Below are positions 679 to 62,597 of a stretch of 64,000 nt of DNA, piece after piece; within the stretch, counting starts at the first letter, position 1; the number at the start of each line of letters is the position of its first letter. The stretch lies in assembly GCA_023014335.1 (NCBI GenBank), contig JAECYW010000005.1:1054001-1118000 (forward strand). Direction: 5' to 3'. Under the pieces are notes generated by a model that saw only the letters and a list, made by a program, of their open reading frames with translations, had not been told where the DNA came from and made no database searches. The stretch comes from Galerina marginata. Lineage: Eukaryota > Basidiomycota > Agaricomycetes > Agaricales > Galerinaceae. The position numbers and the translations under genes are program-made.

Positions 679-3600
679 CTAAGATGACGAAGGAAGAATA
701 CGAGGGATTGTAGGGGCACGACCAAAGAACTCAAAGAATATCTGGCAGTAAAGGCGGAAGGCGATTTTTTCCAAAGCTGTGATGTAGGCCTGAACTTCAG
801 CTGACCCTGATGGCTGGTTTCCCATACAGAGTGTCTTCAGCTTAGTATTTCGACGATCAGGCCAATCTGCAATTAAAACCGAGAATGCCATCACATATGG
901 GGCCCGGTTTTGCCAACGACGAGCACCTAAACCTTCGTCGGCAGTAGGGAGATCGTAGACCACAGGATACTTGTTGGGAAAGCAAGCAAATACCATTTCA
1001 TCCCTGTGACCTTGCCCAGCCTCCGACATTGCACTCCGAGGCACGAGACAACGATCAAGGGTGAGGAGTTCAAGGCGGAAGTTGTGTTCGCAGAGATCCC
1101 AGACGATCTCCCGCAGCAATGGCAACTCTAATCGAATCTTCCGCGAAATAATGTCGGGAACCCTGGCGATGATACGTCGCTTCCACACCAATCCGACCGG
1201 TCCATCCAGGTGCGACATGTCCGACATCCCAAACAAAGTCTTCAGCTGGTCAGGAGACTTACGACGGGGGTCTTTCGAGTTAGGCCTCGACTGGGTGGAC
1301 TTGTATCCGAGGACATTTTGGAGGACATGGAAGAAATAGTCCTTCCATTCCTGTGTGCTCGGAAGGACAAAGTGCAACGTGGTACGATGAGTCGCAGTAT
1401 GCAACCAAAAGGCACGCATGGCCAGCCAACAGGGGACAACAAGCATAATGTTCCTCTCGTCTTTGTTCGCCAAAGTATAGGGGTCGAGAACGTGGTAGTG
1501 GCGGAAGCGGTCGTAATCTGGGTGATCCCAAATAGGAGCATCCCTGTCCACCAATGCCAAAGCGTCGTCCCACAGAGAAAGCGCAGGGGGGAAGGTATCT
1601 GCCGTGACCCGCTCGAACTTCAAACCATTGACCTGCGGTCTTTTCGACATGGCCCGGAGGGCGCCAACTGCTACAAAGATAGTCTGGGTCGAAGCTGAAG
1701 ACTCTTGAGGCGCCGCTGAAGGAGGTTGTTGCTCTTAAGTACGAACATGTTAGTAAACGAACACATACAGAGAATTGAGGACTTACCGGCCGAGTGTCCC
1801 AGGCGGATATTGTCTGCTCGCAAGTTCTGCGAAGCGCGATTCCGAACCGCCGACGCCTCTCCGCTGTAGGCCGGAGTACTACCAGGCCAAAGTTGGTCGT
1901 TCAATTCTGGACGAAGTTCAAGGAGGCAGTCGGGAATGACGATGATCATATCCCGAGCGATGCGGCTCGGGGGGCGAACCAGCCAGACGGGGACATAAAG
2001 ATTATAAAGGTTCTGTGCGACCTCCAGGTCACACGTAACCGCGCCAACGAGTCCAGGAAGGAGGCCACGCTCCAAGTCGAGGCTAGTCGAGGTGCTCAAT
2101 CGTCGGTGGATGCTATAATATTCGAAAATTGCCAGCGTCTCCAAGAAGTTACAAGTTCTTACGTAGTAAAAGAACTTGTTTTCCGGCCTGCATAGCAGGC
2201 AGAAATGGTTTCTAATGCAATGGTTGGAAATTCTCCCACTGCTATAGTGACCCTGCATGGTTTCTGTATCTCAGCCATTACTGGGCCAATTTTTATGATC
2301 TTGGTATCAAAAAAATCGTAAAAATCAGGGCTTTCATGTGGCATGTGTATCCAGGGTTGATTAGGTCATGTGACTTGTTCACACGACCCAAAAAGCGCAA
2401 ATTTGTGTGAATTTACACTTAAAACAGATTTCAGTGAGCTAAATATGCTAAAATGTGTTGCCCAGACAAATCTAGAATAATGTACAAATATTTACATATG
2501 TTTTGCAATGATGTCATGGTGTCCAAATCAGGCAAACAGTCAGCTCAACTTGGTGAAAATCCGAAAATTGGTGTTAAACTGACTGGATAACCCATAAAAG
2601 GCACACCAAACATTGCAAAACATGACCAAATAACATGAAAATAATGTTCTAGAAGCTTATATAATCAAACTCACAGCAGGACTTTGTGCAATTGCCTTGG
2701 ATTTGGTAATGCACCAACTTGGACAAAAATATTCTCAGGGATATGTCATGTGATATGTGCGCACAGACCACCTGTTAGGTAAAAAAAAGATTATCAGTAT
2801 TTTTATTTTATTTTAATGCCTTTAAAATCTCTCAATATAGCTTATTTACTGTGTTTTCAACAATATTCCGCATTTGGTAAGTCACATAAAGATGTGACAA
2901 TACGTATGTGACACCATCTGTTAGCCCTGATTTTTCTGATAATTACACATTTTGTTTCAAGGCAATCCGATAAAAGCTAAGTGACGTAAGAATTAATCTT
3001 GTTACAAGTTCTTATTGTAGTCAATTAATTAATCTTGTTACAAGTTCTTACGTAGTAAAAGAACTTGTTTTCCGGCCTGCATAGCAGGCAGAAATGGTTT
3101 CTAATGCAATGGTTGGAAATTCTCCCACTGCTATAGTGACCCTGCATGGTTTCTGTATCTCAGCCATTACTGGGCCAATTTTTATGATCTTGGTATCAAA
3201 AAAATCGTAAAAATCAGGGCCTTCCTGGTCACGTGACCAGGCCGTTTTAGGCTTGTTAGAACCGCCTTATTTTTCTGCTTTTTTTGAGTATAAGATCATC
3301 CCAATCAGTTCAGATTTGAGCGGACTACATGTTATTTACGTATTTAATCTGTATTTGTTTAATAACAGTGTAAGTCTTCAGGCACTGCCCCACCCCAAAG
3401 TAAGAACTTGTTTTTGCCATGCGCAGCAATGGCCTCTGACCAAGTAGCGTTGGAAGGATGTGAAGGTGAGGACAGTGTCGTCGTAGGTCTGAGAGGCAAC
3501 TGTGAGGGCGAGGGAGGCAAATCTCAACCCCCTTGCGCAGTGCCGGAGGTCCCTCAACTCAGCGAACGAGCAGTCGTCGGGGTTGGTTCTGGCATATTCC

Positions 3601-4252
3601 TCCACCTTCCTCTCCAATGCTCTGCGCATATCTAATACCCGCCCCCCAAGCTCCATCGAGATGCGGCCAAAGTCGCGGAAGGCCGAACCCTGTTCATAGA
3701 CGAAGTCTTCCCTCCGGAGATTGTGCCAAGCCAGTTGGAATTCGTGGTCTTTGACCTCATCGCGAGGCGGACGAGCGCGGACAAAGGGGAGGTATGCCGT
3801 GGAAGGGTGGTACCACTGTGGCCACTCGGTAAAGTCCCCCGTGTAATATCGCCCGTCTCGACGCAGTTGTACGTCGCGTGGATCGATGGAGAAATCCGGG
3901 ATGTAGGGCATGTTTGGAGAAGTAACTATGAACCGCGTTGGAACCGGCCTCCCGTTGGCGTCGGGGCCAGGAGTGTCTCGTTCGAGGCCAGGGACTTTGT
4001 AGCGGAGTGTGCGCAACTCCCCGATCGTACGAGCATCGGTGAAGTCGTGTGCTAGTAACATGTGTCAGTAAGACTACGAGGTGAGGAAGTGATGGGCACG
4101 CACGAGGACTGGCCCTGCTGTGCTTCTCGAAAATGGCCATATCTTCCCTCGACCCATCCCGTTTCACTCCGTAGCAGTCGTAGTAAATATCTATGAAACA
4201 TGAATAAAGATCAGATTGAAAACCTAAGATACACACCTGAAGGTCGAGCCAT
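679..4252 (-). pseudogene. AB protein gene, copy 1, interrupted by a palindromic-end element
   Basis: Uncharacterised protein of a kind common in Agaricomycete genomes; I know no function for it. Model on the minus strand: exons 4252-4237, 4190-4104, 4051-1787 (with the element at 2150-3444 inside) and 1733-679. Without the element and one copy of the duplicated T, the exons total 2127 nt, exactly 709 codons, so the frame was open before the insertion. Motifs shared with the intact copy at 40940-43354 include TSPNM-x-x-IP, FQRY-F/Y-LETLA, VWLVR, RNRASQ, RLGHSA, NFRLE-x-L-x-LDRC and FGRAP near the C-terminus. Exon 2 is 87 nt in both copies. The element sits in coding sequence between FQRY and LETLA and has no GT-AG edges in the gene's direction, so the gene is probably dead. 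Introns have GT-AG borders; that at 1786-1734 ends TTAAG. Confidence 0.85.
2150..3444 (+). mobile_element. Palindromic-end element (PEE) subfamily 1, n=1, inside AB gene copy 1
   Basis: 1,295 bp. Order: LE (2150), body, second LE (3039), then RE. The LE begins TACAAG and has the palindrome arms CAAGTTCTT and AAGAACTTG, followed by a GCCTGC-ATA-GCAGGC hairpin. The RE starts with the palindrome CCTGGTCACGTGACCAGG and ends with GTAAGAACTTG, a GCCAT/ATGGC hairpin and GACCAAG. The target in the element's direction was AAGAAGT^AGCG, with one T duplicated. No protein is encoded, so the element must be mobilised in trans. The LE-to-LE period is 889 bp. Confidence 0.9.
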
Positions 4253-11047: not shown

Positions 11048-11465
11048 GATCTTCTTTGTTGATTTCTTTGACTCAATACTTTCATTGTCAACAATATTAA
11101 TTTTCAGATTGTGATTTGTTATTTCACTTTCTTATACCCAATTTGCTTTTATCCTTGCCTTGTATTAGGCTTCATATTTTATGCTGCTCTTTTATTTTTC
11201 AATAATCCTTCCTGGTCTTAGTGTTATCAGCTTTCCACACTCATTTCTATACATATTATCTCACTCATTTGGTTTTACTTCTTAGTCATTTTCATGTTCT
11301 GATTGGGTACTGGGATGTCTTGGTGGTTCTTCTTTCCGGCAGTCATTGACATTGATCTTACACATATCACATTACGTAGAAGTCAGTATTTAGTAGTCAG
11401 TAGTCAGTAGTCACTCATTTGCACTTGAATATATCAATTTGTTTTTTATTGGGTGAGATTGTGGA
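11048..11465. other. 3' flank of C gene copy 1
   Basis: AT-rich, T-rich on the plus strand, with a short run of AGTAGTCAGT-type repeats at about 11381-11413. No gene is supported. It continues on the far side of the inserted element at 14559. Confidence 0.5.
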
Positions 11466-14400
11466 CTTGGTCAGAGGCCATTGCTGCGCATGGCAAAAAC
11501 AAGTTCTTACTTTGGGGTGAGGCAGTGCCTGAAGACTTACACTGTTATTAAACAAATACATATTAAATACGTAAATAACATGTAGTCCGCTCAAATCTGA
11601 ACCGATTGGGATGATCTTATACTCAAAAAAAGCAGAAAAATAAGGCAAATCTAACGAGCCTAAAACGGCCTGGTCACGTGACCAGGAAGGCCCTGATTTT
11701 TACGATTTTTTTGATACCAAGATCATAAAAATTGGCCAAGTAATGGCTGAGATACAGAAACCATGCAGGGTCACTATAGCAGTGGGAGAATTTCCAACCA
11801 TTGCGTTAGAAACCATTTCTGCCTGCTATGCAGGCCGGAAAACAAGTTCTTTTACTACGTAAGAACTTGTAACAAGATTAATTAATTGACTACAATAAGA
11901 ACTTGTAACAAGATTAATTCTTACGTCACTTAGCTTTTATCGGATTGCCTTGAAACAAAGTGTGTAATTATTAGAAAAATCAGGGCTAAAGGATGGTGTC
12001 ACATGCGTATTGTCACATCTTTATGTGACTTACCAAATGCGGAATATTGTTGAAAACACAGTAAATAAGCTATATTGAGAGATTTTAAAGGCATTAAAAT
12101 AAAATAAAAATACTGATAATCTTTTTTTTACCTAACAGGTGGTCTGTGCGCACATATCACATGACATATCCCTGAGAATACTTTTGTCCAAGTTGGTGCA
12201 TTACCAAATCCAAGGCAATTGCACAAAGTCCTGCTGTGAGTTTGATTATGTAAGCTTCTAGAACATTATTTTCATGTTATTTGGTCATGTTTTGCAATGT
12301 TTGGTGTGCCTTTTATGGATTATCCAGTCAGTTTAACACCAATTTTCGGATTTTCACCAAGTTGAGCTGACTGTTTGCCGGATTTGGACACCATGACATC
12401 ATTGCAAAACATATGTAAATATTTGTACATTATTCTATATTGGTCTGGGCAACACATTTTAGCATATCTAGCTCATTCAAATCTGTTTTAAGCATAAATT
12501 CACACAAATTTGCGCTTTTTGGGTCGTGTGAACAAGTCACATGACCTAATCAACCCTGGATACACATGCCACATGAAAGCCCTGATTTTTACGATTTTTT
12601 TGATACCAAGATCATAAAAATTGGCCAAGTAATGGCTGAGATACAGAAACCATGCAGGGTCACTATAGCAGTGGGAGAATTTCCAACCATTGCGTTAGAA
12701 ACCATTTCTGCCTGCTATGCAGGCCGGAAAACAAGTTCTTTTACTACGTAAGAACTTGTAACAAGATTAATTAATTGACTACAATAAGAACTTGTAACAA
12801 GATTAATTCTTACGTCACTTAGCTTTTATCGGATTGCCTTGAAACAAAGTGTGTAATTATTAGAAAAATCAGGGCTAAAGGATGGTGTCACATGCGTATT
12901 GTCACATCTTTATGTGACTTACCAAATGCGGAATATTGTTGAAAACACAGTAAATAAGCTATATTGAGAGATTTTAAAGGCATTAAAATAAAATAAAAAT
13001 ACTGATAATCTTTTTTTTACCTAACAGGTGGTCTGTGCGCACATATCACATGACATATCCCTGAGAATACTTTTGTCCAAGTTGGTGCATTACCAAATCC
13101 AAGGCAATTGCACAAAGTCCTGCTGTGAGTTTGATTATGTAAGCTTCTAGAACATTATTTTCATGTTATTTGGTCATGTTTTGCAATGTTTGGTGTGCCT
13201 TTTATGGATTATCCAGTCAGTTTAACACCAATTTTCGGATTTTCACCAAGTTGAGCTGACTGTTTGCCGGATTTGGACACCATGACATCATTGCAAAACA
13301 TATGTAAATATTTGTACATTATTCTATATTGGTCTGGGCAACACATTTTAGCATATCTAGCTCATTCAAATCTGTTTTAAGCATAAATTCACACAAATTT
13401 GCGCTTTTTGGGTCGTGTGAACAAGTCACATGACCTAATCAACCCTGGATACACATGCCACATGAAAGCCCTGATTTTTACGATTTTTTTGATACCAAGA
13501 TCATAAAAATTGGCCAAGTAATGGCTGAGATACAGAAACCATGCAGGGTCACTATAGCAGTGGGAGAATTTCCAACCATTGCGTTAGAAACCATTTCTGC
13601 CTGCTATGCAGGCCGGAAAACAAGTTCTTTTACTACGTAAGAACTTGTAACAAGATTAATTAATTGACTACAATAAGAACTTGTAACAAGATTAATTCTT
13701 ACGTCACTTAGCTTTTATCGGATTGCCTTGAAACAAAGTGTGTAATTATTAGAAAAATCAGGGCTAAAGGATGGTGTCACATGCGTATTGTCACATCTTT
13801 ATGTGACTTACCAAATGCGGAATATTGTTGAAAACACAGTAAATAAGCTATATTGAGAGATTTTAAAGGCATTAAAATAAAATAAAAATACTGATAATCT
13901 TTTTTTTACCTAACAGGTGGTCTGTGCGCACATATCACATGACATATCCCTGAGAATACTTTTGTCCAAGTTGGTGCATTACCAAATCCAAGGCAATTGC
14001 ACAAAGTCCTGCTGTGAGTTTGATTATGTAAGCTTCTAGAACATTATTTTCATGTTATTTGGTCATGTTTTGCAATGTTTGGTGTGCCTTTTATGGATTA
14101 TCCAGTCAGTTTAACACCAATTTTCGGATTTTCACCAAGTTGAGCTGACTGTTTGCCGGATTTGGACACCATGACATCATTGCAAAACATATGTAAATAT
14201 TTGTACATTATTCTATATTGGTCTGGGCAACACATTTTAGCATATCTAGCTCATTCAAATCTGTTTTAAGCATAAATTCACACAAATTTGCGCTTTTTGG
14301 GTCGTGTGAACAAGTCACATGACCTAATCAACCCTGGATACACATGCCACATGAAAGCCCTGATTTTTACGATTTTTTTGATACCAAGATCATAAAAATT

Positions 14401-14558
14401 GGCCAAGTAATGGCTGAGATACAGAAACCATGCAGGGTCACTATAGCAGTGGGAGAATTTCCAACCATTGCGTTAGAAACCATTTCTGCCTGCTATGCAG
14501 GCCGGAAAACAAGTTCTTTTACTACGTAAGAACTTGTAATACTACGTAAGAACTTGTA
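11466..14558 (-). mobile_element. PEE subfamily 1, n=3, inverted
   Basis: It reads leftward: RE at 11466, then LE and body units repeating every 889 bp (equivalent points at 12566, 13455 and 14344), and the outer LE end at 14558. The three monomers look identical. The empty site on the plus strand would be TTGTGGA^CTATATAC with a 1-nt duplication. The outer LE carries an extra ~19-nt partial duplication of its own tip (14540-14558). The repeated 61-aa open frames (12566, 13455, 14344) are part of the repeat, not genes. Confidence 0.85.
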
Positions 14559-15130
14559 ACTATATACTGCTTATATTTGTTTTTATTATGTCTTAAGATG
14601 ACAGAATGTACTAAAAATCACTGGGAAGATAGGGTGTGGTCTGGTAGAAAACTCGGAGTGACTTGTAGGGATACTGTATTGAATTCTCAGTCCTTTAATT
14701 TCACTTGTTGAAAGACTTTTGGTAACCAAGGTGATGTTGTAGGAAATTATTGAGTTTCTGATTGGAGTTTTGGTTAGTATTATCTTTATTTAATATTGTT
14801 TTTTGTCTTGTGTTATTTTTTGTTTTTGTTTTTTGTTTTTCTTCTATGGCCACAAATTTGCTTAAGTGCAAAGTTCAAAACAAGGCCAAGGACACAAATT
14901 GGGGCCCAGAACTATGTGAGATATCCTTGTGGTGACTTCCAGATTAGAGGTTGTGTATTGAGTTCCTACTTGGAGTATCACTACTATTTAAAAACATTTT
15001 GTTGTTTTATTTTTGTGTTTTTTTTTTGGTTTTTGTTATTGTTTTGTTTTTGTTGTTGTAACTATTGGGATGGTGGCAATACAGGTGCCATTAGAGAAAG
15101 AGTACAAATCTACTGCTAAGCTAAGTCAAT
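14559..15130. other. AT-rich spacer, probably internal to the first giant element
   Basis: Contains long T-rich stretches. The open frame at 14796-15119 is a low-complexity, phenylalanine-rich artefact. Its position between the C-gene flank and a tandem-repeat array matches 50504-51257 in the intact giant element. Confidence 0.4.
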
Positions 15131-18102
15131 GACTGTGACTTGCAGACGACTTGCAGTGAGTTCCAGATGACTTGCGGTGAGTTCCAGATGACTTGCGGTG
15201 AGTTCGGATGACTTGCAGTGGGTTGGTTAATGTTGGAGCGAATTCATCGTATCCTTATAATGACTTGTGGATGACTTGCAGTGAGTTTGGATGACTTGTG
15301 TGAGTTTGGATGACCTGCAGTGAGTTGTTTAATGCTGGAGCAAATTCATTGTATCCTTATGATGACTTGCAGATGACTTGCAGTGAGTTCCGGATGACTT
15401 AGGGACTTGTGGTGAGTTCGGATGACTTGCAGTGAGTTGGTTAATGCTGGAGCGAATTCATTGTATCCTTATGATGACTTGTGGATGACTTGCAGTGAGT
15501 TCAAATGACTTGCGGTGAGTTCCGGATGACTTGCGGTGAGTTCAGATGACTTGCGGTGAGTTCCAGATGATTTGTGGTGTGTTCGGATGACCTGCGATGA
15601 GTTGGTTAAGATGACTTGCGGTGAGTTTGTATGACCTGGAGTGAGTTGGTTAATGCTGGAGCAAATTATGATGACTTGTGGATGACTTGCGGTGAGTTCC
15701 GGATGACTTGCGGTGTGTTCGGATGACTTGCGGTAAGTTGGTTAATATTGGAGCAAATTCATTGTATCCTTATAATGACTTGTGGATGACTTGCGGTGAG
15801 TTCCAGATGACTTGCAGTGGGTTGGTTAATGTTGGAGCGAATTCATCGTATCCTTATAATGACTTGTGGATGACTTGCAGTGAGTTTGGATGACTTGTGT
15901 GAGTTTGGATGACCTGCAGTGAGTTGTTTAATGCTGGAGCAAATTCATTGTATCCTTATGATGACTTGCAGATGACTTGCAGTGAGTTCCGGATGACTTA
16001 GGGACTTGTGGTGAGTTCGGATGACTTGCAGTGAGTTGGTTAATGCTGGAGCGAATTCATTGTATCCTTATGATGACTTGTGGATGACTTGCAGTGAGTT
16101 CAAATGACTTGCGGTGAGTTCCGGATGACTTGCGGTGAGTTCAGATGACTTGCGGTGAGTTCCAGATGATTTGTGGTGTGTTCGGATGACCTGCGATGAG
16201 TTGGTTAAGATGACTTGCGGTGAGTTTGTATGACCTGGAGTGAGTTGGTTAATGCTGGAGCAAATTATGATGACTTGTGGATGACTTGCGGTGAGTTCCG
16301 GATGACTTGCGGTGTGTTTGGATGACTTGCGGTAAGTTGGTTAATATTGGAGCAAATTCATTGTATCCTTATAATGACTTGTGGATGACTTGCGGTGAGT
16401 TCCAGATGACCTGCAGTGAGTTGGTTAATGTTGGAGCGAATTCATCGTATCCTTATGATGACTTGTGGATGACTTGCGGTGAGTTCCGGATGACTTGTGG
16501 TGTGTTCGGATGACCTGCGGTAAGTTGGTTAATGCTGGAGCGAATTCATCGTATCCCTATGATGACTTGCGGATGACTTGTGGTGAGTTCAGATGACTTG
16601 CGGTGAGTTCGGATGACTTGCAGTAAGTTGGTTAATATTGGAGCAAATTCATCGTATCCTTATAATGACTTGCGGATGACTTGCGGTGAGTTCCGGATGA
16701 CCTGCAGTGAGTTCGGATGACTTGTGGTGTGTTCGGATGACTTGCTGTGAGTTGGTTAATGCTGGAGCGAATTCATCGTATCCCTATGATGACTTGCGGA
16801 TGACTTGCGGTGAGTTCCGTATGACTTGCGGTGAGTTCGGATAACTTGTGGTGAGTTCGGATGACCTGCAGTGAGTTGGTTAATGTTGGAGTGAATTCAT
16901 TGTATCCTTATAATGACTTGCGGATGACTTGCAGTGAGTTCAAATGACTTGTGGTGAGTTCGGATGACTTGTGGTGAGTTCCGGATGACTTGTGGTGTGT
17001 TCGGATGACTTGCAGTAAGTTGGTCAATGTTGGAGCGAATTCATTGTATCCTTATGATGACTTGTGGATGACTTGCGGTGAGTTAAGATGACTTGCGGTG
17101 TGTTCGGATGACTTGCATTGAGTTGGTTAATGCTGGAGAAAATTCATCGTATCCCTATGATGACTTGCAGATGACTTGCGGTGAGTTCCGGATGTCCTGC
17201 AGTGAGTTCGGATGACTTGCTGTGAGTTGGTTAATGCTGGAGCGAATTCATCATATCCTTATAATGACTTGCGGATGACTTGCGGTGAGTTCGTATAACT
17301 TGTGGTGAGTTCAGATGACCTGCAGTGAGTTGGTTAATGTTGGAGTGAATTCATTGTATCCTTATAATGACTTGCGGATGACTTGCAGTGAGTTCAAATG
17401 ACTTGTGGTGAGTCCGGATGACTTGTGGTGAGTTCCGGATGACTTGTGGTGTGTTCGGATGACTTGCAGTAAGTTGGTCAATGTTGGAGCGAATTCATTG
17501 TATCCTTATGATGACTTGTGGATGACTTGCGGTGAGTTAAGATGACTTGCGGTGTGTTCGGATGACTTGCATTGAGTTGGTTAATGCTGGAGAAAATTCA
17601 TCGTATCCCTATGATGACTTGCAGATGACTTGCGGTGAGTTCCGGATGTCCTGCAGTGAGTTCGGATGACTTGCTGTGAGTTGGTTAATGCTGGAGCGAA
17701 TTCATCATATCCTTATAATGACTTGCGGATGACTTGCGGTGAGTTCGTATAACTTGTGGTGAGTTCAGATGACCTGCAGTGAGTTGGTTAATGTTGGAGT
17801 GAATTCATTGTATCCTTATAATGACTTGCGGATGACTTGCAGTGAGTTCAAATGACTTGCGGTGAGTTCGGATGACTTGTGGTGAGTTCCGGATGACTTG
17901 TGGTGTGTTCGGATGACTTGCAGTAAGTTGGTTAATGCTGGAGCGAATTCATCGTATCCTTATAATGACTTGCCGATGACTTGCAGTGAGTTCCGGATGA
18001 CTTGCGGTGAGTTCGGATGACTTGCATTGAGCTGGTTAATGTTGGAGCAAATTCATCGTATCCTTATAATGACTTGCGGATGACTTGCGGTGAGTTCCGG
18101 AT
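15131..18102 (+). repeat. Minisatellite of GATGACTTGCGGTGAGTTC-type units
   Basis: Almost 3 kb of degenerate ~19-20-nt units (GATGACTTGCGGTGAGTTC and variants). A longer module containing GGTTAATGCTGGAGCGAATT and CATCGTATCCTTAT recurs within it. Higher-order repetition is visible: about 599 bp between 15708 and 16307, and about 454 bp between 17021 and 17475. No coding origin is recognised on either strand. By position it corresponds to the subterminal array of the giant KDZ element. It is cut at 18102 by a PEE. Confidence 0.85.
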
Positions 18103-20638
18103 TACAAGTCCTTACGTAGTAAAAGGACTTGTTCTTATCCAGAGAACAAGCCAAATTGCTTGCAGTGCGACCTCTGATTTCGTTGATTTTCTCTCACGCT
18201 GTCAAACTTCACTAAAATTGTGATATCTTGGCCATTTCTTGACCATTTACAATGATTTTGGTATCAGAAAAATCACACAATTCAGGGCTATAACATGGTG
18301 CGTGTAGCGGACCCTGAATTTTATTTCCCACATTCCGAAATCTTGTCTTTTTAAGCAAAACAGGACAGATTTCCACTATACGCAAGCCAAATTTGAAGAT
18401 AATGATACTGTTGGAATCACAAAATTAAGCATTTTCACTTAAGAGCCAAATATTTGGTGTGCCTGAGTTTTAAATTATTTCCCACAGCCTCCAAATCTTG
18501 TGTTTTATGATAAACTCGGCTGAAAATGCACAAGTCACATAAAATAGAAGGTAAATACCCCAATAAAAAACACTTTTGATGGACCTGGACCCTGAGATTA
18601 TTATTTTGAAGTGTTTGAAAACCCACTTAAATGTTTAACTTGGTCAAATTACCAAATTCTTCTAATTTAAATCAATCCGGTTCAAGTATTTCCAAATTTG
18701 GCAATTTTCCGGTCACCTGACTCTTATGCACGGACCACCATATTAAAGGGCTGAATTTTCTGCTAATTACACAACTTATTTCAAGGAAATCCATTAAGAA
18801 TTCAGCTTGCTAGCGCAATAACTTGTTACAAGTCCTTACGTAGTAAAAGGACTTGTTCTTATCCAGAGAACAAGCCAAATTGCTTGCAGTGCGACCTCTG
18901 ATTTCGTTGATTTTCTCTCACGCTGTCAAACTTCACTAAAATTGTGATATCTTGGCCATTTCTTGACCATTTACAATGATTTTGGTATCAGAAAAATCAC
19001 ACAATTCAGGGCTATAACATGGTGCGTGTAGCGGACCCTGAATTTTATTTCCCACATTCCGAAATCTTGTCTTTTTAAGCAAAACAGGACAGATTTCCAC
19101 TATACGCAAGCCAAATTTGAAGATAATGATACTGTTGGAATCACAAAATTAAGCATTTTCACTTAAGAGCCAAATATTTGGTGTGCCTGAGTTTTAAATT
19201 ATTTCCCACAGCCTCCAAATCTTGTGTTTTATGATAAACTCGGCTGAAAATGCACAAGTCACATAAAATAGAAGGTAAATACCCCAATAAAAAACACTTT
19301 TGATGGACCTGGACCCTGAGATTATTATTTTGAAGTGTTTGAAAACCCACTTAAATGTTTAACTTGGTCAAATTACCAAATTCTTCTAATTTAAATCAAT
19401 CCGGTTCAAGTATTTCCAAATTTGGCAATTTTCCGGTCACCTGACTCTTATGCACGGACCACCATATTAAAGGGCTGAATTTTCTGCTAATTACACAACT
19501 TATTTCAAGGAAATCCATTAAGAATTCAGCTTGCTAGCGCAATAACTTGTTACAAGTCCTTACGTAGTAAAAGGACTTGTTCTTATCCAGAGAACAAGCC
19601 AAATTGCTTGCAGTGCGACCTCTGATTTCGTTGATTTTCTCTCACGCTGTCAAACTTCACTAAAATTGTGATATCTTGGCCATTTCTTGACCATTTACAA
19701 TGATTTTGGTATCAGAAAAATCACACAATTCAGGGCTATAACATGGTGCGTGTAGCGGACCCTGAATTTTATTTCCCACATTCCGAAATCTTGTCTTTTT
19801 AAGCAAAACAGGACAGATTTCCACTATACGCAAGCCAAATTTGAAGATAATGATACTGTTGGAATCACAAAATTAAGCATTTTCACTTAAGAGCCAAATA
19901 TTTGGTGTGCCTGAGTTTTAAATTATTTCCCACAGCCTCCAAATCTTGTGTTTTATGATAAACTCGGCTGAAAATGCACAAGTCACATAAAATAGAAGGT
20001 AAATACCCCAATAAAAAACACTTTTGATGGACCTGGACCCTGAGATTATTATTTTGAAGTGTTTGAAAACCCACTTAAATGTTTAACTTGGTCAAATTAC
20101 CAAATTCTTCTAATTTAAATCAATCCGGTTCAAGTATTTCCAAATTTGGCAATTTTCCGGTCACCTGACTCTTATGCACGGACCACCATATTAAAGGGCT
20201 GAATTTTCTGCTAATTACACAACTTATTTCAAGGAAATCCATTAAGAATTCAGCTTGCTAGCGCAATAACTTGTTACAAGTCCTTACGTAGTAAAAGGAC
20301 TTGTTCTTATCCAGAGAACAAGCCAAATTGCTTGCAGTGCGACCTCTGATTTCGTTGATTTTCTCTCACGCTGTCAAACTTCACTAAAATTGTGATATCT
20401 TGGCCATTTCTTGACCATTTACAATGATTTTGGTATCAGAAAAATCACACAATTCAGGGCCAACCTGGTCACGTGACCAGGCCGTTTTATTACCATAAAA
20501 TGCGCCTTTTTATTCCCTTTCCAACGAATTCAAGATCAGCCTAATCGGATGAGATCTGACTGCGTTATTAATCATTTACCTGAGATAAAATACGTAAGGA
20601 CTTGTTTTTGCCATGCGCAGCACTGGCTGCTATGCAAG
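18103..20638 (+). mobile_element. PEE subfamily 2, n=3
   Basis: Same architecture as subfamily 1 but with mostly different sequence. The LE palindrome arms are CAAGTCCTT and AAGGACTTG. The monomer period is 724 bp (equivalent points at 18435, 19159 and 19883). The RE starts with the same CCTGGTCACGTGACCAGG palindrome and ends TACGTAAGGACTTG, GCCATGCGCAGCACTGGC, then GCAAG. The 63-aa open frames repeated on the minus strand are repeat sequence. The left neighbour is the minisatellite and the right neighbour is LINE sequence, so the flanks do not form one simple empty site. Confidence 0.88.
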
Positions 20639-23097
20639 TCGAAAAGCTCTGCTGCGACTTTCCTTCGGATCGCCAATGGATGCCTTGAGCACTCCTATTG
20701 GCCCTCCTCCTTCAAAGAGAGCAAGTCGGTTATCATTCCGAAACCGGGCAAGCCCTCCTATGCCACCCCCAAGTCATTCAGGCTGATTGTGCTTCTGAAT
20801 ACTCTGGGGAAACTCATTGAGAAGATGATCTCGAACCGCATTCAGTTTGACGCGATCAAACATGATGTTTTCCATCCAAATCAGGTTGGGGGCGTTCGGC
20901 AGCGCTCCACTGAGGATGCTGGCCTCTACCTCACTCACATTGTGCGAGCGGGGTGGGCTAAGGGACTTAAAACGAGCGTTCTGGCGTTCGATCTGGCCCA
21001 ATTCTTTCCCTCAATAAATCATGATGTTTTATTGGCGGTTCTTTCCCGGCTTGGTTTTCCACCGAATGTGGTGAAATTCTTCGCCTCTTATCTCGTTGGG
21101 CGGCACACGCAGTATGCGTGGAATGCCTTCACATCTCCGCCTCGGTCTGCAGACGTAGGGGTTGGGCAGGGTTCTGCTCTCTCTCCCGTTCTGTCGGCCT
21201 TGTGCTTGGTGCTGATCATGCGCCTTTTCGAGCTGCACCCTGATGCGTGCTGGCTCTTATCCTACGTCGACGACGGTACACTCATTGTGCAGTCGAAGTC
21301 GCTCGACCAGAATTGTTTGCTCCTCAAAAAAGCTTACAAGGTTATTTTCGAGCTTTTTACTAAGTTCGCTCTCGTCCTCGAGCATGACAAGTCGGAGATT
21401 TATCACTTCGACAGGTCGTTCTCGGATTACAACCCTCCGATTGATCTGGGCTTTTCCCCGTACACCGGAGCCACTCCCTTGAAACCCAAGCCGTTTTGGC
21501 GGTACTTGGGCTTTTTCTTTGATCGTAAGCTCACCTTTCATGAGCACGTTCGCTTCTACTCGACCAAGGCATTCTCATCAGTTCAGGCTATGCGGATGCT
21601 TGGGTCGTCTACTAAAGGCTTGGAACCGCATTCTAAGCGGCTCTTATACCGTTCCTGCGTGGTGCCCATAGCTACCTATGGGTTCCATTTATGGTACTTT
21701 GACGGCGCCAAGTGTAAAGGCGCCGTGAAGCTATTGAGTCAGATGCAGCGCAAGGCTGCTCTCTGGATTACAGGGGCGTTCTCAACGTCCCCAGGCCCAG
21801 GTGTGGAGGCCCTCGCGGGTCTCCTCCCTATTCATATTCTCCTCGATCGTATGGCCGCGCTGGGTGTACTGCGCGCGGGCACGCTTTCGGCGACTCATCC
21901 CGTCCGATCATTCTTGATCGGGCACATGCTGGGCAAGGCTAAGCCTCACCCCCTCTCGGCTCACTCGTTGACGCGCCGGCAACGGCTCGCCACGAAGGGG
22001 CCTATCATGGACATCGTTAAGAGGCTCCCCGAGCTGACCGAGCATTTGGATCCTTCGGCTCCTCTTGCTCAGCCAGGCCGTCGGTTGCGCGACACATACT
22101 GGTCGCGCATTCACTTTGACGACTCCCTCTCTCCTTTGGAGAAGGGTGATCGTATTCTGTACCTCGATTTCATTTCGGAGATGTTCATGTCCTATCGGAT
22201 ACGTGGGGGTTATGCATCGGGGTGGATGCTAGTGTTTTCACTAACCCCGCCTCCAAAAAGGCTACTCAGGCTGTTGCAGCAGGGGTCCTTTACTCACAAG
22301 GCACCGAAGTTAATCGCTTCAGGTGGCTTGTAGGCCGTGCCACCGCGCCCGACGCGGAGCTCTCGGCTGTTGTCCGTGCCCTCGAGCTCGCCACCCAGCG
22401 AGCTTGCGAGCACATTGCTATTTTCACGTACTCGATCGCGGCTGCGAAGCGAGCCCTTGACCCTTCCTTGCACTCGTCGCAGGCTCACTCCCTGCGCGCG
22501 TGCAAACTCATCGAGACCTGGCTGGCGGGCGACCCGCTGCGTTGGTTATCGTTCCACCACGGCCCCTCTAAGCTTAAGTGGGGTATGCAACATGAGGCGC
22601 ACAAGCACGCTGCTGGCTCCTATCATCGGCCCGTGGACCATGGTTCACGGGTCACTCTCGATCGCCTCCGTTCGGAGGCGGACGCCACCGCGGCGCGTCG
22701 TTGGGCTAAGGCCGCAACGGATCGTCCGCAAGACCTTGGTCGCGACTTCCTCCAGCTTCGCAAGCTGGGTAAGAAAGTCGTTACTATAACCCCGGATACC
22801 CGCAAGGGTGGTCCATGGATTCGCAAAGCAGGAGGTGACAACACTTCCTTTGCGCGCTTGTGCAGGTGTATACTGAATCATGCGCCAATCGGTGCGTATT
22901 ACCGCCGGTTTAACATACAAGAGCCTCACGGCTGCCCCCGATGCGGTGCTCCTCGCGAGACCCGCTCGCACATCCTCTCGTACTGTCCAGGCTACGAGAG
23001 ACCCGCTCCTACGGACCGGTTACACGGTCTTTTGGAATTCCTGTTGGAGAATCCTACGGCATTCTCCTTCGAACGTCCCGCCGCAGGCATAGGATAA
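20639..23097 (+). pseudogene. LINE ORF2 copy 1: reverse transcriptase + RNase H, frameshifted
   Basis: Encodes the reverse transcriptase (SVLAFDLAQFFPSIN near 20975, GVGQGSALSPVLSALC near 21158, SYVDDGT near 21263), then an RNase H domain and a C-terminal zinc-knuckle-like CPRCGAPRETRSHILSYC (near 22937). Relative to the second LINE there is a 5-nt insertion near 22190, so the frame shifts and the RNase H part continues in another frame from about 22222. The RNase H catalytic aspartate in IFTDS is a tyrosine here (IFTYS, near 22427). The 5' half, including any endonuclease, is missing. The copy cannot encode a working protein. Confidence 0.88.
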
Positions 23098-36700: not shown

Positions 36701-39700
36701 ATTCGTAAAAATCAGGGCTTTCATGTGGCATGTGTATCCAGGGTTGATTAGGTCATGTGACCTGTTCACACAAGCCAAAAAGCACAAATTTGTGTGAATT
36801 CACACTTGATACAGATTTCAGTGAGCTAGATATGCTAAAATATGTTGCCCAGACAAATCTAGAATAATGTACAAATATTTACATATGTTTTGCAATGATG
36901 TCATGGTGTCCAAATCAGGCAAACAGTCAGTTCAACTTGGTGAAAATCCGAAAATTGGTGTTAAACTGACTGGATAACCCATAAAAGGCACACCAAACAT
37001 TGCAAAACATCACCAAATAACATGGAAATAATGTTTTAGAAGCTTACATAATCAAACTCACAGCAGGACTTTGTGCAAATCCCTTGAAATCAATTGAGGC
37101 ACCAAGTTAGACCAAAATATTCTCAGGGATATGTCATGTGATATGTGTGCACAGACCATCCCTTAGGTAAAAAAAACATCATCTGTATTTTTATTTTATT
37201 TTAATGCCTTTAAATCTCCCAATATAGTGTATTTCAAACAATATTCCGCATTTGGTAAGTCACATAAAGGTGTGACAATACATATGTGACATTATCTCTT
37301 AGCCCTGATTTTTCTGATAATTACACACTTTGTTTCAAGGCAATCCGATAAAAACTAAGCGACGTAAGAGTTAATCTTATTACAAGTTCTTATTGTAGTC
37401 TAATAATTAATCTTGTTACAAGTTCTTACGTAGTAAAAGAACTTGTTTTCCGGCCTGCATAGCAGGCAGAAAACATTCCTAACGCAATGGTTCGAAATTC
37501 TCCCACTCATACAGTGACCCTGCATGGTTTCTGTATCTCAGCCATTACTGGGCCAATTTTTATGATCTTGGTATCAAAAAATTCGTAAAAATCAGGGCTT
37601 TCATGTGGCATGTGTATCCAGGGTTGATTAGGTCATGTGACCTGTTCACACAAGCCAAAAAGCACAAATTTGTGTGAATTCACACTTGATACAGATTTCA
37701 GTGAGCTAGATATGCTAAAATATGTTGCCCAGACAAATCTAGAATAATGTACAAATATTTACATATGTTTTGCAATGATGTCATGGTGTCCAAATCAGGC
37801 AAACAGTCAGTTCAACTTGGTGAAAATCCGAAAATTGGTGTTAAACTGACTGGATAACCCATAAAAGGCACACCAAACATTGCAAAACATCACCAAATAA
37901 CATGGAAATAATGTTTTAGAAGCTTACATAATCAAACTCACAGCAGGACTTTGTGCAAATCCCTTGAAATCAATTGAGGCACCAAGTTAGACCAAAATAT
38001 TCTCAGGGATATGTCATGTGATATGTGTGCACAGACCATCCCTTAGGTAAAAAAAACATCATCTGTATTTTTATTTTATTTTAATGCCTTTAAATCTCCC
38101 AATATAGTGTATTTCAAACAATATTCCGCATTTGGTAAGTCACATAAAGGTGTGACAATACATATGTGACATTATCTCTTAGCCCTGATTTTTCTGATAA
38201 TTACACACTTTGTTTCAAGGCAATCCGATAAAAACTAAGCGACGTAAGAGTTAATCTTATTACAAGTTCTTATTGTAGTCTAATAATTAATCTTGTTACA
38301 AGTTCTTACGTAGTAAAAGAACTTGTTTTCCGGCCTGCATAGCAGGCAGAAAACATTCCTAACGCAATGGTTCGAAATTCTCCCACTCATACAGTGACCC
38401 TGCATGGTTTCTGTATCTCAGCCATTACTGGGCCAATTTTTATGATCTTGGTATCAAAAAATTCGTAAAAATCAGGGCTTTCATGTGGCATGTGTATCCA
38501 GGGTTGATTAGGTCATGTGACCTGTTCACACAAGCCAAAAAGCACAAATTTGTGTGAATTCACACTTGATACAGATTTCAGTGAGCTAGATATGCTAAAA
38601 TATGTTGCCCAGACAAATCTAGAATAATGTACAAATATTTACATATGTTTTGCAATGATGTCATGGTGTCCAAATCAGGCAAACAGTCAGTTCAACTTGG
38701 TGAAAATCCGAAAATTGGTGTTAAACTGACTGGATAACCCATAAAAGGCACACCAAACATTGCAAAACATCACCAAATAACATGGAAATAATGTTTTAGA
38801 AGCTTACATAATCAAACTCACAGCAGGACTTTGTGCAAATCCCTTGAAATCAATTGAGGCACCAAGTTAGACCAAAATATTCTCAGGGATATGTCATGTG
38901 ATATGTGTGCACAGACCATCCCTTAGGTAAAAAAAACATCATCTGTATTTTTATTTTATTTTAATGCCTTTAAATCTCCCAATATAGTGTATTTCAAACA
39001 ATATTCCGCATTTGGTAAGTCACATAAAGGTGTGACAATACATATGTGACATTATCTCTTAGCCCTGATTTTTCTGATAATTACACACTTTGTTTCAAGG
39101 CAATCCGATAAAAACTAAGCGACGTAAGAGTTAATCTTATTACAAGTTCTTATTGTAGTCTAATAATTAATCTTGTTACAAGTTCTTACGTAGTAAAAGA
39201 ACTTGTTTTCCGGCCTGCATAGCAGGCAGAAAACATTCCTAACGCAATGGTTCGAAATTCTCCCACTCATACAGTGACCCTGCATGGTTTCTGTATCTCA
39301 GCCATTACTGGGCCAATTTTTATGATCTTGGTATCAAAAAATTCGTAAAAATCAGGGCCTTCCTGGTCACGTGACCAGGCTGTTTTAGGCTTGTTAGAAC
39401 CGCCTCATTTTTCTGCTTTTTTTGAGTATATGATCATCCAAATCCGTTCAGATTTGAGCGGACTACATATTATTTACTTATTTAACCTTTATTTATAGTC
39501 GGACTCACCTTAAAAGTAAGAACTTGTTTTTGCCATGCGCAGCAATGGCCTCTGACCAAGTAATACCTGACTCTGACAGATCCACCATTTCAATATCAGG
39601 AATATTTTGCGGTTGATAGTGGAGGTCTATGAATAGAAGATCAATTGATAGAGCTAGGAAATTAAAGAAGTATACATACCATCAGTCATAACAGCATCAT

Positions 39701-44547: not shown

Positions 44548-44644
44548 TGGTGTATTGGTAACGATCACCGAGGCTGTGAGCTAACGCCTCCGGGTCGGAC
44601 CGAGGTCTTTCATGATGCACCGCGTTCGATTCCCAGTAAGTCCA
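44548..44644 (+). ncRNA. Possible degenerate tRNA-derived (SINE-like) sequence
   Basis: GGTGTATTGGTAACG resembles a tRNA D-arm/A box and GCGTTCGATTCCC a B box about 75 nt later, ending CAGTAAGTCCA followed by a T-rich stretch. The acceptor arm does not pair and the middle is too long, so it is not a functional tRNA. Confidence 0.3.
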
Positions 44645-56338: not shown

Positions 56339-59300
56339 AATAAGAACTTGTAACAAGATTAATTCTTACGTCACTTAGCTTTTATCGGATTGCCTTGAAA
56401 CAAAGTGTGTAATTATCAGAAAAATCAGGGCTAAAAGATGGTGTCACATACGTATTGTCACATCTTTATGTGACTTACCAAATGCGGAATATTGTTGAAA
56501 ACACAGTAAATAAGCTATATTGAGAGATTTTAAAGGCATTAAAATAAAATAAAAATACTGATAATCTTTTTTTTACCTAACAGGTGGTCTGTGCGCACAT
56601 ATCACATGACATATCCCTGAGAATATTTTTGTCCAAGTTGGTGCATTACCAAATCCAAGGCAATTGCACAAAGTCCTGCTGTGAGTTTGATTATGTAAGC
56701 TTCTAGAACATTATTTCCATGTTATTTGGTCATATTTTTCAATGTTTGGTGTGCCTTTTATGGGTTATCCAGTCAGTTTAACACCAATTTTCGGATTTTC
56801 ACCAAGTTAAGCTAACTGTTTGCCTGATTTGGACACCATGACATCATCGCAAAACATATGTAAATATTTGTACATTATTCTAGATTGGTCTGGGTAACAT
56901 ATTTTAGTATATCTAGCTCACTGAAATCTGTTTTAAGTGTAAATTCACACAAATTTGCGCTTTTTGGGTTGTGTGAGCAGGTCACATGACCTAATCAACC
57001 CTGGATACACATGCCACATGAAAGCCCTGATTTTTACGATTTTTTTGATACCAAGATCATAAAAATTGGCCCAGTAATGGCTGAGATACAGAAACCATGC
57101 AGGGTCACTATAGCAGTGGGAGAATTTCCAACCATTGCGTTAGAAACCATTTCTGCCTGCTATGCAGGCCGGAAAACAAGTTCTTTTACTACGTAAGAAC
57201 TTGTAATGCTGGCCTCTACCTCACTCACATTGTGCGAGCGGGGTGGGCTAAGGGACTTAAAACGAGCGTTTTGGCGTTCGATCTGGCCCAATTTTTTCCC
57301 TCGATAAACCACGACGTTTTATTGGCGGTCCTTTCCCGGCTTGGCTTTCCACCGAATGTGGTGAAATTCTTTGCCTCTTATCTCGTTGGGCGGCACACGC
57401 AGTATGCGTGGAACGCCTTCACTTCTCCGCCTCGGTCTGCAGACGTGGGGGTAGGGCAGGGTTCTGCTCTTTCTCCCGTTCTGTCGGCTCTGTGCTTGGT
57501 GCTGATCATGCGCCTCTTCGAGCTGCACCCGGATGCGTGCTGGCTCCTCTCCTATGTCGACGACGGTACACTGATCGTACAGTCAAAGTCGCTCGACCAA
57601 AATTGTTTGCTCCTCAAAAAAGCTTACAAGGTTATCTTCGAGCTCTTTACTAAGTTCGCGCTCGTCCTCGAGCATGACAAGTCGGAGATTTATCACTTCG
57701 ACAGGTCATTCTCGGATTACAACCCTCCGATTGATCTGGGCTTTGCCCCGTACACCGGAGCCACTCCCCTGAAACCCAAGCCGTTCTGGCGGTACCTGGG
57801 CTTCTTCTTTGATCGTAAGCTCACTTTTCATGAGCACGTTCGCTTTTACTCGACCAAGGCATTCTCATCAGTTCAGGCTATGCGGATGCTTGGGTCGTCT
57901 ACTAAGGGTCTGGAACCGCACTCCAAGCGGCTTCTGTACCGCTCGTGCGTGGTGCCCATAGCTACTTATGGGTTCCGCCTATGGTACTTCGACGGCACTA
58001 AGTGCAAGGGCGCCATGAAGCTATTGAGCCAGATGCAGCGTAAGGCTGCCCTCTGGATTACAGGGGCGTTCTCGACGTCCCCAGGCCCAGGTGTGGAGGC
58101 CCTCGCAGGTCTCCTCCCTATTCACATCCTCCTTGATCGCATGGCCACGCTCGGTATACTGCGCGCGGGTACGCTTTCGGGGACTCATCCCGTTCGGTCA
58201 TTCTTGATCGGGCATATGTTGGGCAGGGCTAAGCCTCACCCCCTCTCGGCTCACTCGCTGACTCGCCGGCAACGGCTTGCCACGAAGGGGCCTATCATGG
58301 ACATTGTCAAGAGGCTCCCCGAGCTGACCGAGCACTTGGATCCTTCGACTCCCCTTGCTCAGCCAGGCCGTCGGCTGCGCGACACGTATTGGTCGCGCAT
58401 CCACTTTGACGACTCCCTTTCTCCTTTGGAGAAGGGTGATCGTATTCTCTACCTCGACTTCATTTCGGAACTCTTCATGTCCGATACGTGGGGGTTATGT
58501 ATCGGGGTGGACGCTAGTGTTTTCACTAACCCCGCCTCAAAAAAGGCTACTCAGGCTGTTGCAGCAGGGGTCCTTTACTCACAAGGCGCCGAAGTTAATC
58601 GCTTCCGGTGGCTTGTAGGCCGTGCTACCGCGCCTGACGCGGAGCTGTCGGCTGTTGTCCGTGCTCTCGAGCTCGCCACCCAGCGCGCTTGTGAGCACAT
58701 TGCGATTTTCACGGACTCGATCGCAGCTGCGAAACGAGCCCTTGACCCTTCCTTGCACTCGTCGCAGGCTCATTCCCTGCGCGCTTGCAAACTCATTGAG
58801 ACCTGGCTGGCGGGCGATCCGCTGCGCTGGCTATCATTCTACCACGTCCCCTCTAAGCTCAAGTGGGGCATGCAACATGAGGCGCACAAGCACGCTGCTG
58901 GCTCCATTCACCGGCCTGTGGACCATGGTTCACGGGTCACTCTCGATCGCCTCCGCTCGGAGGCGGACGCCGCCGTGGCGCGTCGTTGGGCTAAGGCCGC
59001 AACGGATCGTCCGCAGGATCTCGGTCGCGACTTCCTCCAGCTTCGCAAGCTGGGCAAGAAAGTCGTTACTATAACTCCGGATACTCGAAAGGGTGGTCCA
59101 TGGATTCGCAAAGCAGGAGGTGACAACACCTCCTTTGCGCGCTTGTGCAGGTGTATACTGAATCATGCGCCAATCGGTGCGTATTACCGCCGATTTAACA
59201 TACAAGAGCCTCACGGCTGCCCCCGATGCGGTGCTCCTCGCGAGACCCGCTCACATATCCTCTTGTACTGTCCAGGCTACGAGAGACCCGCTCCGACGGA

Positions 59301-60083: not shown

Positions 60084-61347
60084 AACAAGAAAAACCCAAC
60101 CACAGAAGCCAGAACGAGTTGCCCGGATACTGCAGGAGGTGACTATTGGGCCTGATATCACAGAAGAACAGCGTAAAACGGTACAAGAGCTACTCACCGA
60201 ATTTGCGGATTGCTTCACACTCTCAATCAAAGAGGTCAATGCCATTCCAGGCGCAGTTCACAAGTTGAATATTCCAGAAGGCACAACATTTCGAACCAAA
60301 ATACCACCCAGGTCATACAATCCAGATCAACGGGCATTCATGGAGGCAAAAGTTGATGAAATGCTAGAGGCAGGAATCATCCGTCAAATCCACCCACGAG
60401 ATGTTTGCTTCGTCGCACAAACAGTACTCGCACAAAAGGCACATGATGGCGAAGGACTGACGCTCGACGAGCTTAAGCACCGCGTCAATGAGCAATGCAT
60501 CAAACATGGCCTTCCAAGTGAATTTGACATGGAAACGCGGCCCTCTCGAGAACCAGACCAACTGCCCAATACTCCAAACAAACCAAAGAAATGGCGCCTA
60601 TGTCAGGATTTCAGTGGGATCAATAAAGTCACAGAAATTGCTCCAATGCCACAGGGCGATATACGTGCAAAACAACTCCGCCTATCTGGACACCAATACC
60701 TACACGTCTTTGATTTCGCAGCAGGCTTCTATGGAATAGCAGTCCACCCAGACTCACAACCATACATTGTATTCTACTTTGAAGGAAGAGGATACTTTGC
60801 TTATGAACGCATGCCATTTGGTGTTACAGGAGGACCATCCGAGTTTGGACATGTCACAGCAGAAAGGTTTCATGACCTTATCGCACAAGCAATCCTCGAG
60901 CTATTTGTTGATGATGGCGGAATGGGATCTGACTCATTTGAAGAGGGGTTGGCCAAATTACGGATATTGCTTGAGAGAGTTCGCAGAGAGGAAATGTCTC
61001 TTTCCCCCAGCAAGCTTCGCTTATTTATGAGCGAGGCTGTATTTGCGGGCGCACAGGTTGGACCTAATGGGGTGAGCCCAGACTCGAGCAAGCTGACAGC
61101 AATTGTCGACTGGCCAATACCCACAGATGCATCACATCTAGAAGGTTTCCTGGGTTTAACAAGCTATTTCCGTGACCTTATTAAGGGATACGCACAACTG
61201 GAGGCTCCACTACAAAACATTCTACACCAAGTACCTATACCAGCAGGCACCAAAAAACAAGGTTATCAGAGGATAATGAGAGCATATAAGCTGGCTGACA
61301 TCTGGACCCAAGAACACACCAAAACATTCCTGTCTCTAAAAGCTCGT
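60084..61347 (+). pseudogene. Ty3-like polyprotein fragment: reverse transcriptase
   Basis: Continuation of the polyprotein after the LINE. It has the RT motifs of Ty3-type elements: IPPRSYNPDQRAF and EAGIIRQ, WRLCQDFSGINKV (near 60593), VFDFAAGFYGIAVHP (first catalytic Asp, near 60708), RMPFGVTGGPSEF (near 60809), ELFVDDGG (catalytic Asp pair, near 60899) and the connection-domain start LEGFLGLTSYFRDLIKGYA (near 61138). It is cut after LSLKAR by a PEE. RNase H and integrase are not in the window. The element appears to have had an intact RT before the insertions. Confidence 0.88.
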
Positions 61348-62597
61348 TACAAGTTCTTACGTAGTAAAAGAACTTGTTTTCCGGCCTGCATAGCAGGCAG
61401 AAATGGTTTCTAACGCAATGGTTGGAAATTCTCCCACTGCTATAGTGACCCTGCATGGTTTCTGTATCTCAGCCATTACTGGGCCAATTTTGATGATTTT
61501 GGTATCAAAAAATTCGTAAAAATCAGGGCTTTCATGTGGCATGTGTATCCAGGGTTGATTAGGTCATGTGACCTGCTCACACGACCCAAAAAGCGCAAAT
61601 TTGTGTAAATTTACACTTAAAATAAATTTCAGTGAGCTAAATATGCTAAAATGTGTTGCCCAGATCAATCTAGAATAATGTACAAATATTTACATATGTT
61701 TTGCAATGATGTCATGGTGTCCAAATCTGGCAAACAGTCAGCTCAACTTGGTGAAAATCCGAAAATTGGTGTTAAACTGACTGGATAACCCATAAAAGGC
61801 ACACCAAACATTGCAAAACATGACCAAATAACATGGAAATAATGTTCTAGAACCTTACATAATCAAACTCACAGCAGGACTTTGTGCAATTGCCTTGAAA
61901 TCAGGTAAGGCACCAAGTTAGACCAAAATATTCTAAGGGATATGTCATGTGATATGTGTGCACAGACCATCCTTTAGGTAAAAAAAACATCATCTGTATT
62001 TTTATTTTATTTTAGTGCCTTTAAATCTCCCAATATAGTGTATTTCAAACAATATTCTGTATTTGGTAAGTCACATAAAGGTGTGACAATACATATGTGA
62101 CACCATCCTTTAGCCCTGATTTTTCTGATAATTACACACTTTGTTTCAAGGCAATCTGATCAAAACTAAGCGACGTATGAATTAATCTTGTTACAAGTTC
62201 TTACGTAGTAAAAGAACTTGTTTTCCGGCCTGCATAGCAGGCAGAAATGGTTTCTAACGCAATGGTTGGAAATTCTCCCACTGCTATAGTGACCCTGCAT
62301 GGTTTCTGTATCTCAGCCATTACTGGGCCAATTTTGATGATTTTGGTATCAAAAAATTCGTAAAAATCAGGGCCTTCCTGGTCACGTGACCAGTTGATTT
62401 TAGGCTTGTTAGATCCGCCTCATTTTTCTGCTTTTTTTGAGTATAAGATCATCCCAATTGGTTCAGATTTGAGCGTACTACATATTATTTACATATTTAA
62501 TATGTATTTATTTAATAACAGTGTAAGTCTTCAGGCACTGCCTCACCCCAAAGTAAGAACTTGTTTTTGCCATGCGCAGCAATGGCCTCTGACCAAG
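61348..62597 (+). mobile_element. PEE subfamily 1, n=1, inside the Ty3-like polyprotein
   Basis: 1,250 bp, with LE, body, LE and RE. The target was GCTCGT^CTCATA with one T duplicated; removal restores LSLKARLISEPVLSAPKYNG in frame. The body and RE differ slightly from other copies (GGTCACGTGACCAGTTGATT, a changed right edge of the 18-bp palindrome). Confidence 0.9.

Follow-up and report, generated by a model that had tools for sequence, protein, structure and literature searches.

Xiong, Dooner and Du (2016, cited in PMC5148889 and PMC7492417) reportedly described canonical Helitrons of plants in head-to-tail centromeric arrays. An asymmetric inverted repeat near the ends is a printed feature of Helitron2, Helentrons and HINEs (PMC5148889, PMC4067079), and DINE-1 is most abundant in heterochromatin and centromeres (PMC4067079, PMC7492417). 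The elements described here bear on how rolling-circle transposons give rise to tandem arrays and on how the satellite arrays of centromere-like regions originate. The window comprises 64,000 nucleotides of Galerina marginata DNA (C39:1054001-1118000, in a genome of 69.3 Mb in 43 contigs), in which seven insertions have the structure (LE-body)n-LE-RE, with LE and RE as the left-end and right-end modules. We assign these elements, with a probability of roughly 0.85, to non-autonomous Helitron2-type rolling-circle transposons that are probably driven by a Rep-helicase and may form arrays by copying of the LE-body unit from one template. They are a new family of the Helitron2 kind and not a new class, and the identical LEs within each copy are a new clue to the formation of these satellite-like arrays. 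An earlier note on this DNA had placed a new family outside the standard DDE classes; the family stands, and its class is the known one. In this single genome n ranges from 0 to 7, the copies look young, the motifs of the partner elements look intact, and unoccupied sites exist.

The seven insertions belong to two families, and an eighth is clipped at the window edge. Family 1 starts with TTACAAGTTCTTACGTAGTAAAAGAACTTGTTTTCC (36 nt, 22 exact occurrences in the window) and terminates with GTAAGAACTTGTTTTTGCCATGCGCAGCAATGGCCTCTGACCAAGT (the 46-nt RE end, 6 exact occurrences); the plan and the precise ends proposed in the earlier note are borne out. The LE of family 1 extends for 183 nt up to a CAGGGC motif, beyond which lies either body or RE; the body measures 661-706 bp in 11 elements, and the RE 183-225 bp. 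Family 2, with a unit of 724 bp, has the same plan and the same switch point, and its unit shows only short matches to that of family 1 (77-94% over 32-66 bp for the three best). When up to 3 mismatches were allowed, the 21-nt RE core had 561 matches in the genome, compared with 2 for a reversed control pattern. The commonest form outside the window is n=0, or LE-RE (21 of 32 rows, 19 of the 21 at 362-412 bp; one of the 21 is an alternative inner RE of another row), and n ranges from 0 to 7 within one 69-Mb genome. The earlier observation is confirmed; the family 2 element at 18102, the asymmetric inverted repeat and a 20-nt copy of the LE tip had been overlooked. The features, in window coordinates, are as follows.

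2149..3445, plus strand: family 1, n=1, site a; exact LE and RE ends and structure; no unoccupied copy among scored candidates.
11465..14559, minus strand: family 1, n=3, site f; three identical units; no unoccupied copy among scored candidates.
14540-14559, minus strand: extra 20-nt copy of the LE tip in the site f element.
18102..20639, plus strand: family 2, n=3, 724-bp units; three identical units; LEs identical over 187 nt; RE end ...GGCTGCTATGCAAGT.
24058..25331, plus strand: family 1, n=1, site b; exact ends; unoccupied copy at C42:1937322-1937473, 98%.
26678..27650, minus strand: 3' part (body end, last LE and RE) of the split n=1 element at site e; the joined site is found unoccupied elsewhere, with identities reaching 99%.
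56339..57206, minus strand: 5' part of the element split at site e, comprising its LE and the greater share of its body; matches 868 bp of the n=1 copy at 2149 at 98%; shares an 8-bp duplication with the 3' part.
33016..39561, plus strand: family 1, n=7, site c; seven identical 880-bp units; all eight LEs the same across their 183 nt; unoccupied copies next to further KDZ genes.
33016..33198, plus strand: 183-nt LE module, whose nt 3-14 are the arm ACAAGTTCTTAC; folds far better than shuffled sequences.
39516..39561, plus strand: RE terminus, with a 12-nt inverted-repeat arm, 34 nt to the 3' end, and a hairpin-like GCCAT...ATGGC; folds no better than shuffled sequences.
61347..62598, plus strand: family 1, n=1, site d; exact ends; unoccupied copy at C42:1935598-1935730, 98% over 133 bases spanning the join.
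62839..64000, plus strand: clipped copy of the 61347 element, within a 1,492-bp local duplication.

The LE at 62839 is a local duplicate and not an independent insertion, because the 100 bp upstream of it equal those upstream of 61347; between 61347 and 64000 the element and its upstream flank are present twice, in copies 1,492 bp apart. At another locus (L036:1460-1548) there is a tandem pair of RE ends (1504 and 1548), which mirrors the repeated LE tip at 14540-14559.

Units are identical in four arrays (three of family 1 and one of family 2) and 99.9-100% alike in a fifth, and units of different elements are 86-99% alike. The first and last LE, compared over 183 nt, are identical in 10 of 11 elements and differ by one base in the remaining one. 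This is one mismatch in 2,013 positions, compared with a mean of 79 and a minimum of 13 when LE partners were shuffled 10,000 times in a test that ignores relatedness, and the first and last LE of family 2 are likewise identical. The pattern is that of long terminal repeats, and passive inheritance of a composite would not produce it. The single differing base (nt 167 in the last LE of L008) is the one found in the element whose RE is nearest and hints at a switch point; a plain mutation could also account for one base.

Variation in the RE is largely independent of that in the LE and the body. Among the 11 elements, RE differences were correlated neither with those of the LE (r -0.04) nor with those of the body (r -0.07), and LE and body were weakly linked (r 0.38, p 0.045); the two halves of the RE were correlated, with r 0.45 to 0.69 for all elements and for those with n≥1, and 0.31 for n=0. 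On a tree of 30 last LE-RE stretches (30 of the 32 rows, leaving out the inner L036 RE and an element with a 586-nt last LE-RE), body presence changed at least 10 times, with 5 changes forced by starred branches, and random labels gave 9; the count is rough because the tree joins LE and RE, whose histories differ.

A profile search of the genome with PF14214 gave 120 matches, and Pfam identified DUF6570, Helitron_like_N and PIF1 helicase domains in a partner copy of 2,665 codons on contig C21. The partner protein on C39 (2,647 codons) is 52% identical to the C21 protein over 2,204 aligned residues, and HUH, Y-x3-Y and Walker A motifs are present in both. Downstream of the C39 partner open reading frame (ORF) lies the family 1 terminus, with 40 of 46 bases equal; the C21 copy shares with family 1 only about 20 nt of the hairpin and the end CAAGT. 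The C-terminus of the C39 protein had 83 matches, and of the 30 that were fetched, 26 carried this terminus with no more than a single mismatch in 30 nt. Among the other four loci, two belong to a lineage with 52% identity and have the family 2 type GGCTGCT..GCAAGT, and two lack the terminus. Rep-helicase elements that share the 3' terminus at 26 of 30 loci agree with the earlier suggestion that the repeats are non-autonomous and have a longer relative with a Rep gene, and the presence of Rep and PIF1 helicase in them makes the HUH rolling-circle option, raised at the same time, the likely kind. On the 5' side, repeats near the start of the C21 copy are similar to the LE (74-93% over 30-71 bp), in a comparison that stopped short of the partner 5' ends. 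We infer that the partner elements move the repeats, with the LE in the role of origin and the RE in that of terminator. In public databases the Rep region had 561 relatives, of which the best 120 were listed.

Several observations concern the partners themselves. Upstream of Rep, at C39:662001-666000 (L052) and C6:1817251-1817550 (L086), there is a gene of several exons that encodes an acidic C-terminus; its two copies match at 76% over 138 and 62 bp. The gene is part of the autonomous element, because the C39 copy has the same gene as the C6 copy; the two of its exons that were scanned had no Pfam match. Judged by its flanks, one partner copy seems to have inserted into the body of a non-autonomous element (L069), and one non-autonomous copy lies inside a partner ORF at a place that is empty in many sister copies (L072). 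A Helentron was rejected, as a Pfam scan of one copy, that on C21, found no endonuclease behind the helicase.

The ends carry a perfect asymmetric 12-nt inverted repeat, with ACAAGTTCTTAC at nt 3-14 and its complement, GTAAGAACTTGT, 34 nt from the 3' end, which refutes the claim that terminal inverted repeats are absent. Hairpins had been proposed at both ends: the LE is far more stable than shuffled sequences (z -6.5, with 0 of 200 shuffles as stable), and the RE is no more stable than they are. The element begins TTACAAG... and ends ...CAAGT. Canonical Helitron1, which requires 5'-TC, 3'-CTRR and A/T insertion (end and target motifs as given in PMC5148889), was rejected on these ends.

When the flanks were joined with a single T, they matched unoccupied copies elsewhere in the genome across the join at four of six window sites (b, c, d and e). 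For site c, which holds the n=7 element, 151 bases match at 100%, and each of the three places of this kind has another KDZ gene within 300 bp. Sites a and f gave no match among the 40 of 77 candidates that were scored, most of which were copies of site e. Unoccupied paralogues here take the place of the restored open frames on which the earlier note relied. In a search within sampled genomic pieces, 13 of the 32 insertions had a match across the join, ungapped there in the best match of each; two of these 13 rows are weak (~81-82% identity, one of low complexity), and a few lesser matches have another base at the T. The five window rows among the 32 had no unoccupied match within those pieces.

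A purine, A or G, occupies position -1 in 27 of 31 rows (26 of 30 once a segmental duplicate is removed; of the 32 rows, that of the inner L036 RE was left out), which by our own arithmetic has a chance of about 2 in 100,000 at even odds, and at +1 there is no preference (A 9, C 9, G 7, T 6). Of the target rule proposed earlier, R-T^M, the R-T is thus supported and the M is not. A 1-nt duplication of T had also been claimed, and unoccupied sites have one T in the best matches; because the element begins with TT and ends with T, the single T fits a duplication and an element carrying one T more indistinguishably, and it may just be part of the element. For the Fusarium Helitron2 elements FoHeli1 and 2, the T is described as equally ambiguous (PMC5148889). 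In two paralogous repeats the same target position is occupied by an n=0 element (L024, minus strand, 1141-1548) and an n=1 element (L045, 283-1548), reflecting either a hot spot or one insertion with changed n and RE.

We propose that the Rep-helicase of the larger elements, which are located in the same chromosome regions, would nick at the LE as origin and unwind to the RE as terminator, with insertion beside a T and no true target duplication. With several origins per element, replication could begin at each of them, so that n could take any value from 0. Arrays would form when the LE-body unit is copied repeatedly from one template, by rolling-circle copying or through origin-to-origin circles, and the RE would be attached through recombination, or through a template switch, within or beyond the last LE. 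Taken alone, the array step, re-copying of LE-body during the transposition cycle, with frequent recombination as the alternative, is about an even bet. A more specific version is rather unlikely: that the LE acts like a long terminal repeat, each cycle replicating LE-body round a circle from one origin, making the first and last LE and all units identical from the outset, resetting the array length and acquiring an RE from another copy by switching in the last LE. Were it true, a transposon would produce satellite arrays of centromeres in a single step, and its insertions could be dated by LE-LE divergence. LE identity and RE shuffling yield predictions that separate replication models from chromosomal recombination.

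The following points weigh against Rep-helicase-driven copying from one template. The RE folds no better than chance (z -0.7; 43 of 200 shuffles fold equally well), the GCCAT/ATGGC inverted repeat having been seen by eye, and the published Helitron2 target context is TTTT before T or C as opposed to R-T here. No LE was present in the 300-base pieces upstream of two partner copies, and no guessed variant of the LE tip was found upstream of partner ORFs; the variant pattern had 123 matches in the genome (40 for the reversed control), with none near partner N-termini among the 100 listed. Across all 29 rows (L050, a duplicate of L039, being left out), nt 1-97 of the LE were weakly linked to the RE (r 0.18, p 0.03). 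The neglect of relatedness in the LE shuffle test also counts here, and LE identity could stem from gene conversion or from a recent origin of each composite.

Chromosomal recombination, in which unequal exchange after insertion and gene conversion among LEs change n and homogenize LEs and units while transposition copies the result passively, comes closest among the alternatives and falls somewhat short of even probability. It would explain the lability of n, with its minimum of 10 changes on the tree, and the reshuffling of RE against LE-body; nt 167 of L008 resembles a conversion border, with the reservation already given for this base, and the elements sit in repeat clusters where exchange may be frequent. 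However, simple unequal exchange spares the last LE beside the RE, yet this LE equals the first one in 10 of 11 elements and is one base off in the other, and units that are 99.9-100% alike within five arrays differ by 1-14% between elements. It is improbable that the arrays are self-insertion composites, formed when an element inserted beside the LE of another and the two-LE composite was inherited passively (the model of PMC5148889). Every inner LE is preceded by G-T, like an insertion site, Fusarium elements with multiple 5' ends and one 3' end are in print (PMC5148889), and such an event is acceptable as the ultimate origin of the plan; passive inheritance predicts independent divergence of the first and last LE, which is seen neither in family 1 nor in family 2 with its same plan. 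A tyrosine-recombinase element of the Crypton or DIRS type, the second mechanism named in the earlier note, would suit the minimal target change. It is highly implausible (no recombinase profile was run), because Rep and PIF1 helicase are encoded by the elements that share the 3' terminus, and the asymmetric inverted repeats are Helitron2 marks.

The Helitron2-type family and its partner occupy one gene-poor, centromere-like cluster per contig. Among the 100 RE matches listed of 561, there is a single stretch on each of C1, C5 and C6 and two stretches on C4, which the 400-kb rule merges. The 13 clusters cover 5.5% of the genome and were defined from RE and LE-tip places plus another genome search, so the clustering of those places is partly circular; of the variant LE-tip pattern, 89 of the 100 listed places lie inside. 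Independently of that definition, 20 of 24 partner copies with at least 84% identity fall inside clusters, and all 24 do so when 100-kb margins are added; for related lineages the figures are 16 of 17 and, with margins, 17 of 17. Distant Helitron2 elements do so in 1 of 27 (2 of 27 with margins), as does 1 of 14, with or without margins, in the high-scoring PF14214 group, which we take for Helitron1. These four groups were set by score after the lists had been viewed; contigs C41-C43, which lie beyond the end of two of the listings used, were left out, which kept 24 of 28, 17 of 18, 27 of 31 and 14 of 18 places, and one partial 85-nt match was dropped from the family search. No protein kinase locus lies in a cluster (0 of 98, exon rows on the counted contigs having been merged by hand from 149 to 98 loci), and 8 of 98 do so with margins; because clusters with margins make up 9.2% of the genome, the margins have ordinary gene density. 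KDZ matches, by eye, lie both inside and outside clusters. The lineage is concentrated in gene-poor clusters, and the other Helitrons tested are mostly outside. The clusters may be centromeres; in Agaricus bisporus, each chromosome has one large repeat cluster, of 110-280 kb, that was regarded as its likely centromere (PMC7473861).

The elements share the window with other transposons, and short introns, KDZ elements and Helitrons point to a basidiomycete. Five of the ten long ORFs that were scanned had Pfam matches, to reverse transcriptase in four (one below the cut-off; a weak RNase H in one) and to KDZ transposase in one. A 28,688-bp KDZ-type transposon at 27651-56338, with ~2.9-kb inverted repeats rich in 110-bp tandem repeats, a KDZ transposase ORF at 30742-32697 and an 8-bp duplication, AATAAGAA, interrupts the body of a Helitron2 element. 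The order of events is thus legible: this transposon, which also holds the n=7 array, hit the n=1 element of site e. At 15293-18102 is a tandem array of ~20-nt units (GATGACTTGCGGTGAGTTC) with higher-order periods, and the family 2 element is inserted at its end. The sole Rfam match is a tRNA gene on the minus strand at 43457-43529 (53.9 bits), among the transposons.

In the literature on tandem Helitrons, HINEs with inner repeats and multiple 5' ends that we covered, with most subscription papers outside that coverage, we found no report of identical LEs within elements or of RE shuffling. Compared with the tandem centromeric Helitrons of plants, the elements described here are of Helitron2 type, and their last copy lacks the body that the inner copies have. 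Closer likenesses are found in FoHeli1-5, the Helitron2 elements of Fusarium oxysporum, which share asymmetric inverted repeats, a 5' hairpin, the lack of a longer target duplication, an ambiguous T, non-autonomous copies, and multiple 5' ends for a single 3' end (PMC5148889). They differ in that their repeated 5' pieces are short (<200 bp) and their target is TNAT^A as opposed to R-T, and long LE-body arrays or LE identity are not described in the parts of that account that we covered (PMC5148889). Helentrons and HINEs/DINE-1 are alike in having palindromic subterminal inverted repeats 2-4 nt from the 5' end, a palindrome near the 3' end, T-rich or TT targets, and non-autonomous forms with inner tandem repeats (PMC4067079, PMC7492417). 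Helentrons differ in their C-terminal endonuclease (PMC4067079), of which Pfam found none in the C21 copy, and HINEs carry their repeats between the end modules (PMC7492417), whereas here the origin end itself belongs to the repeated unit.

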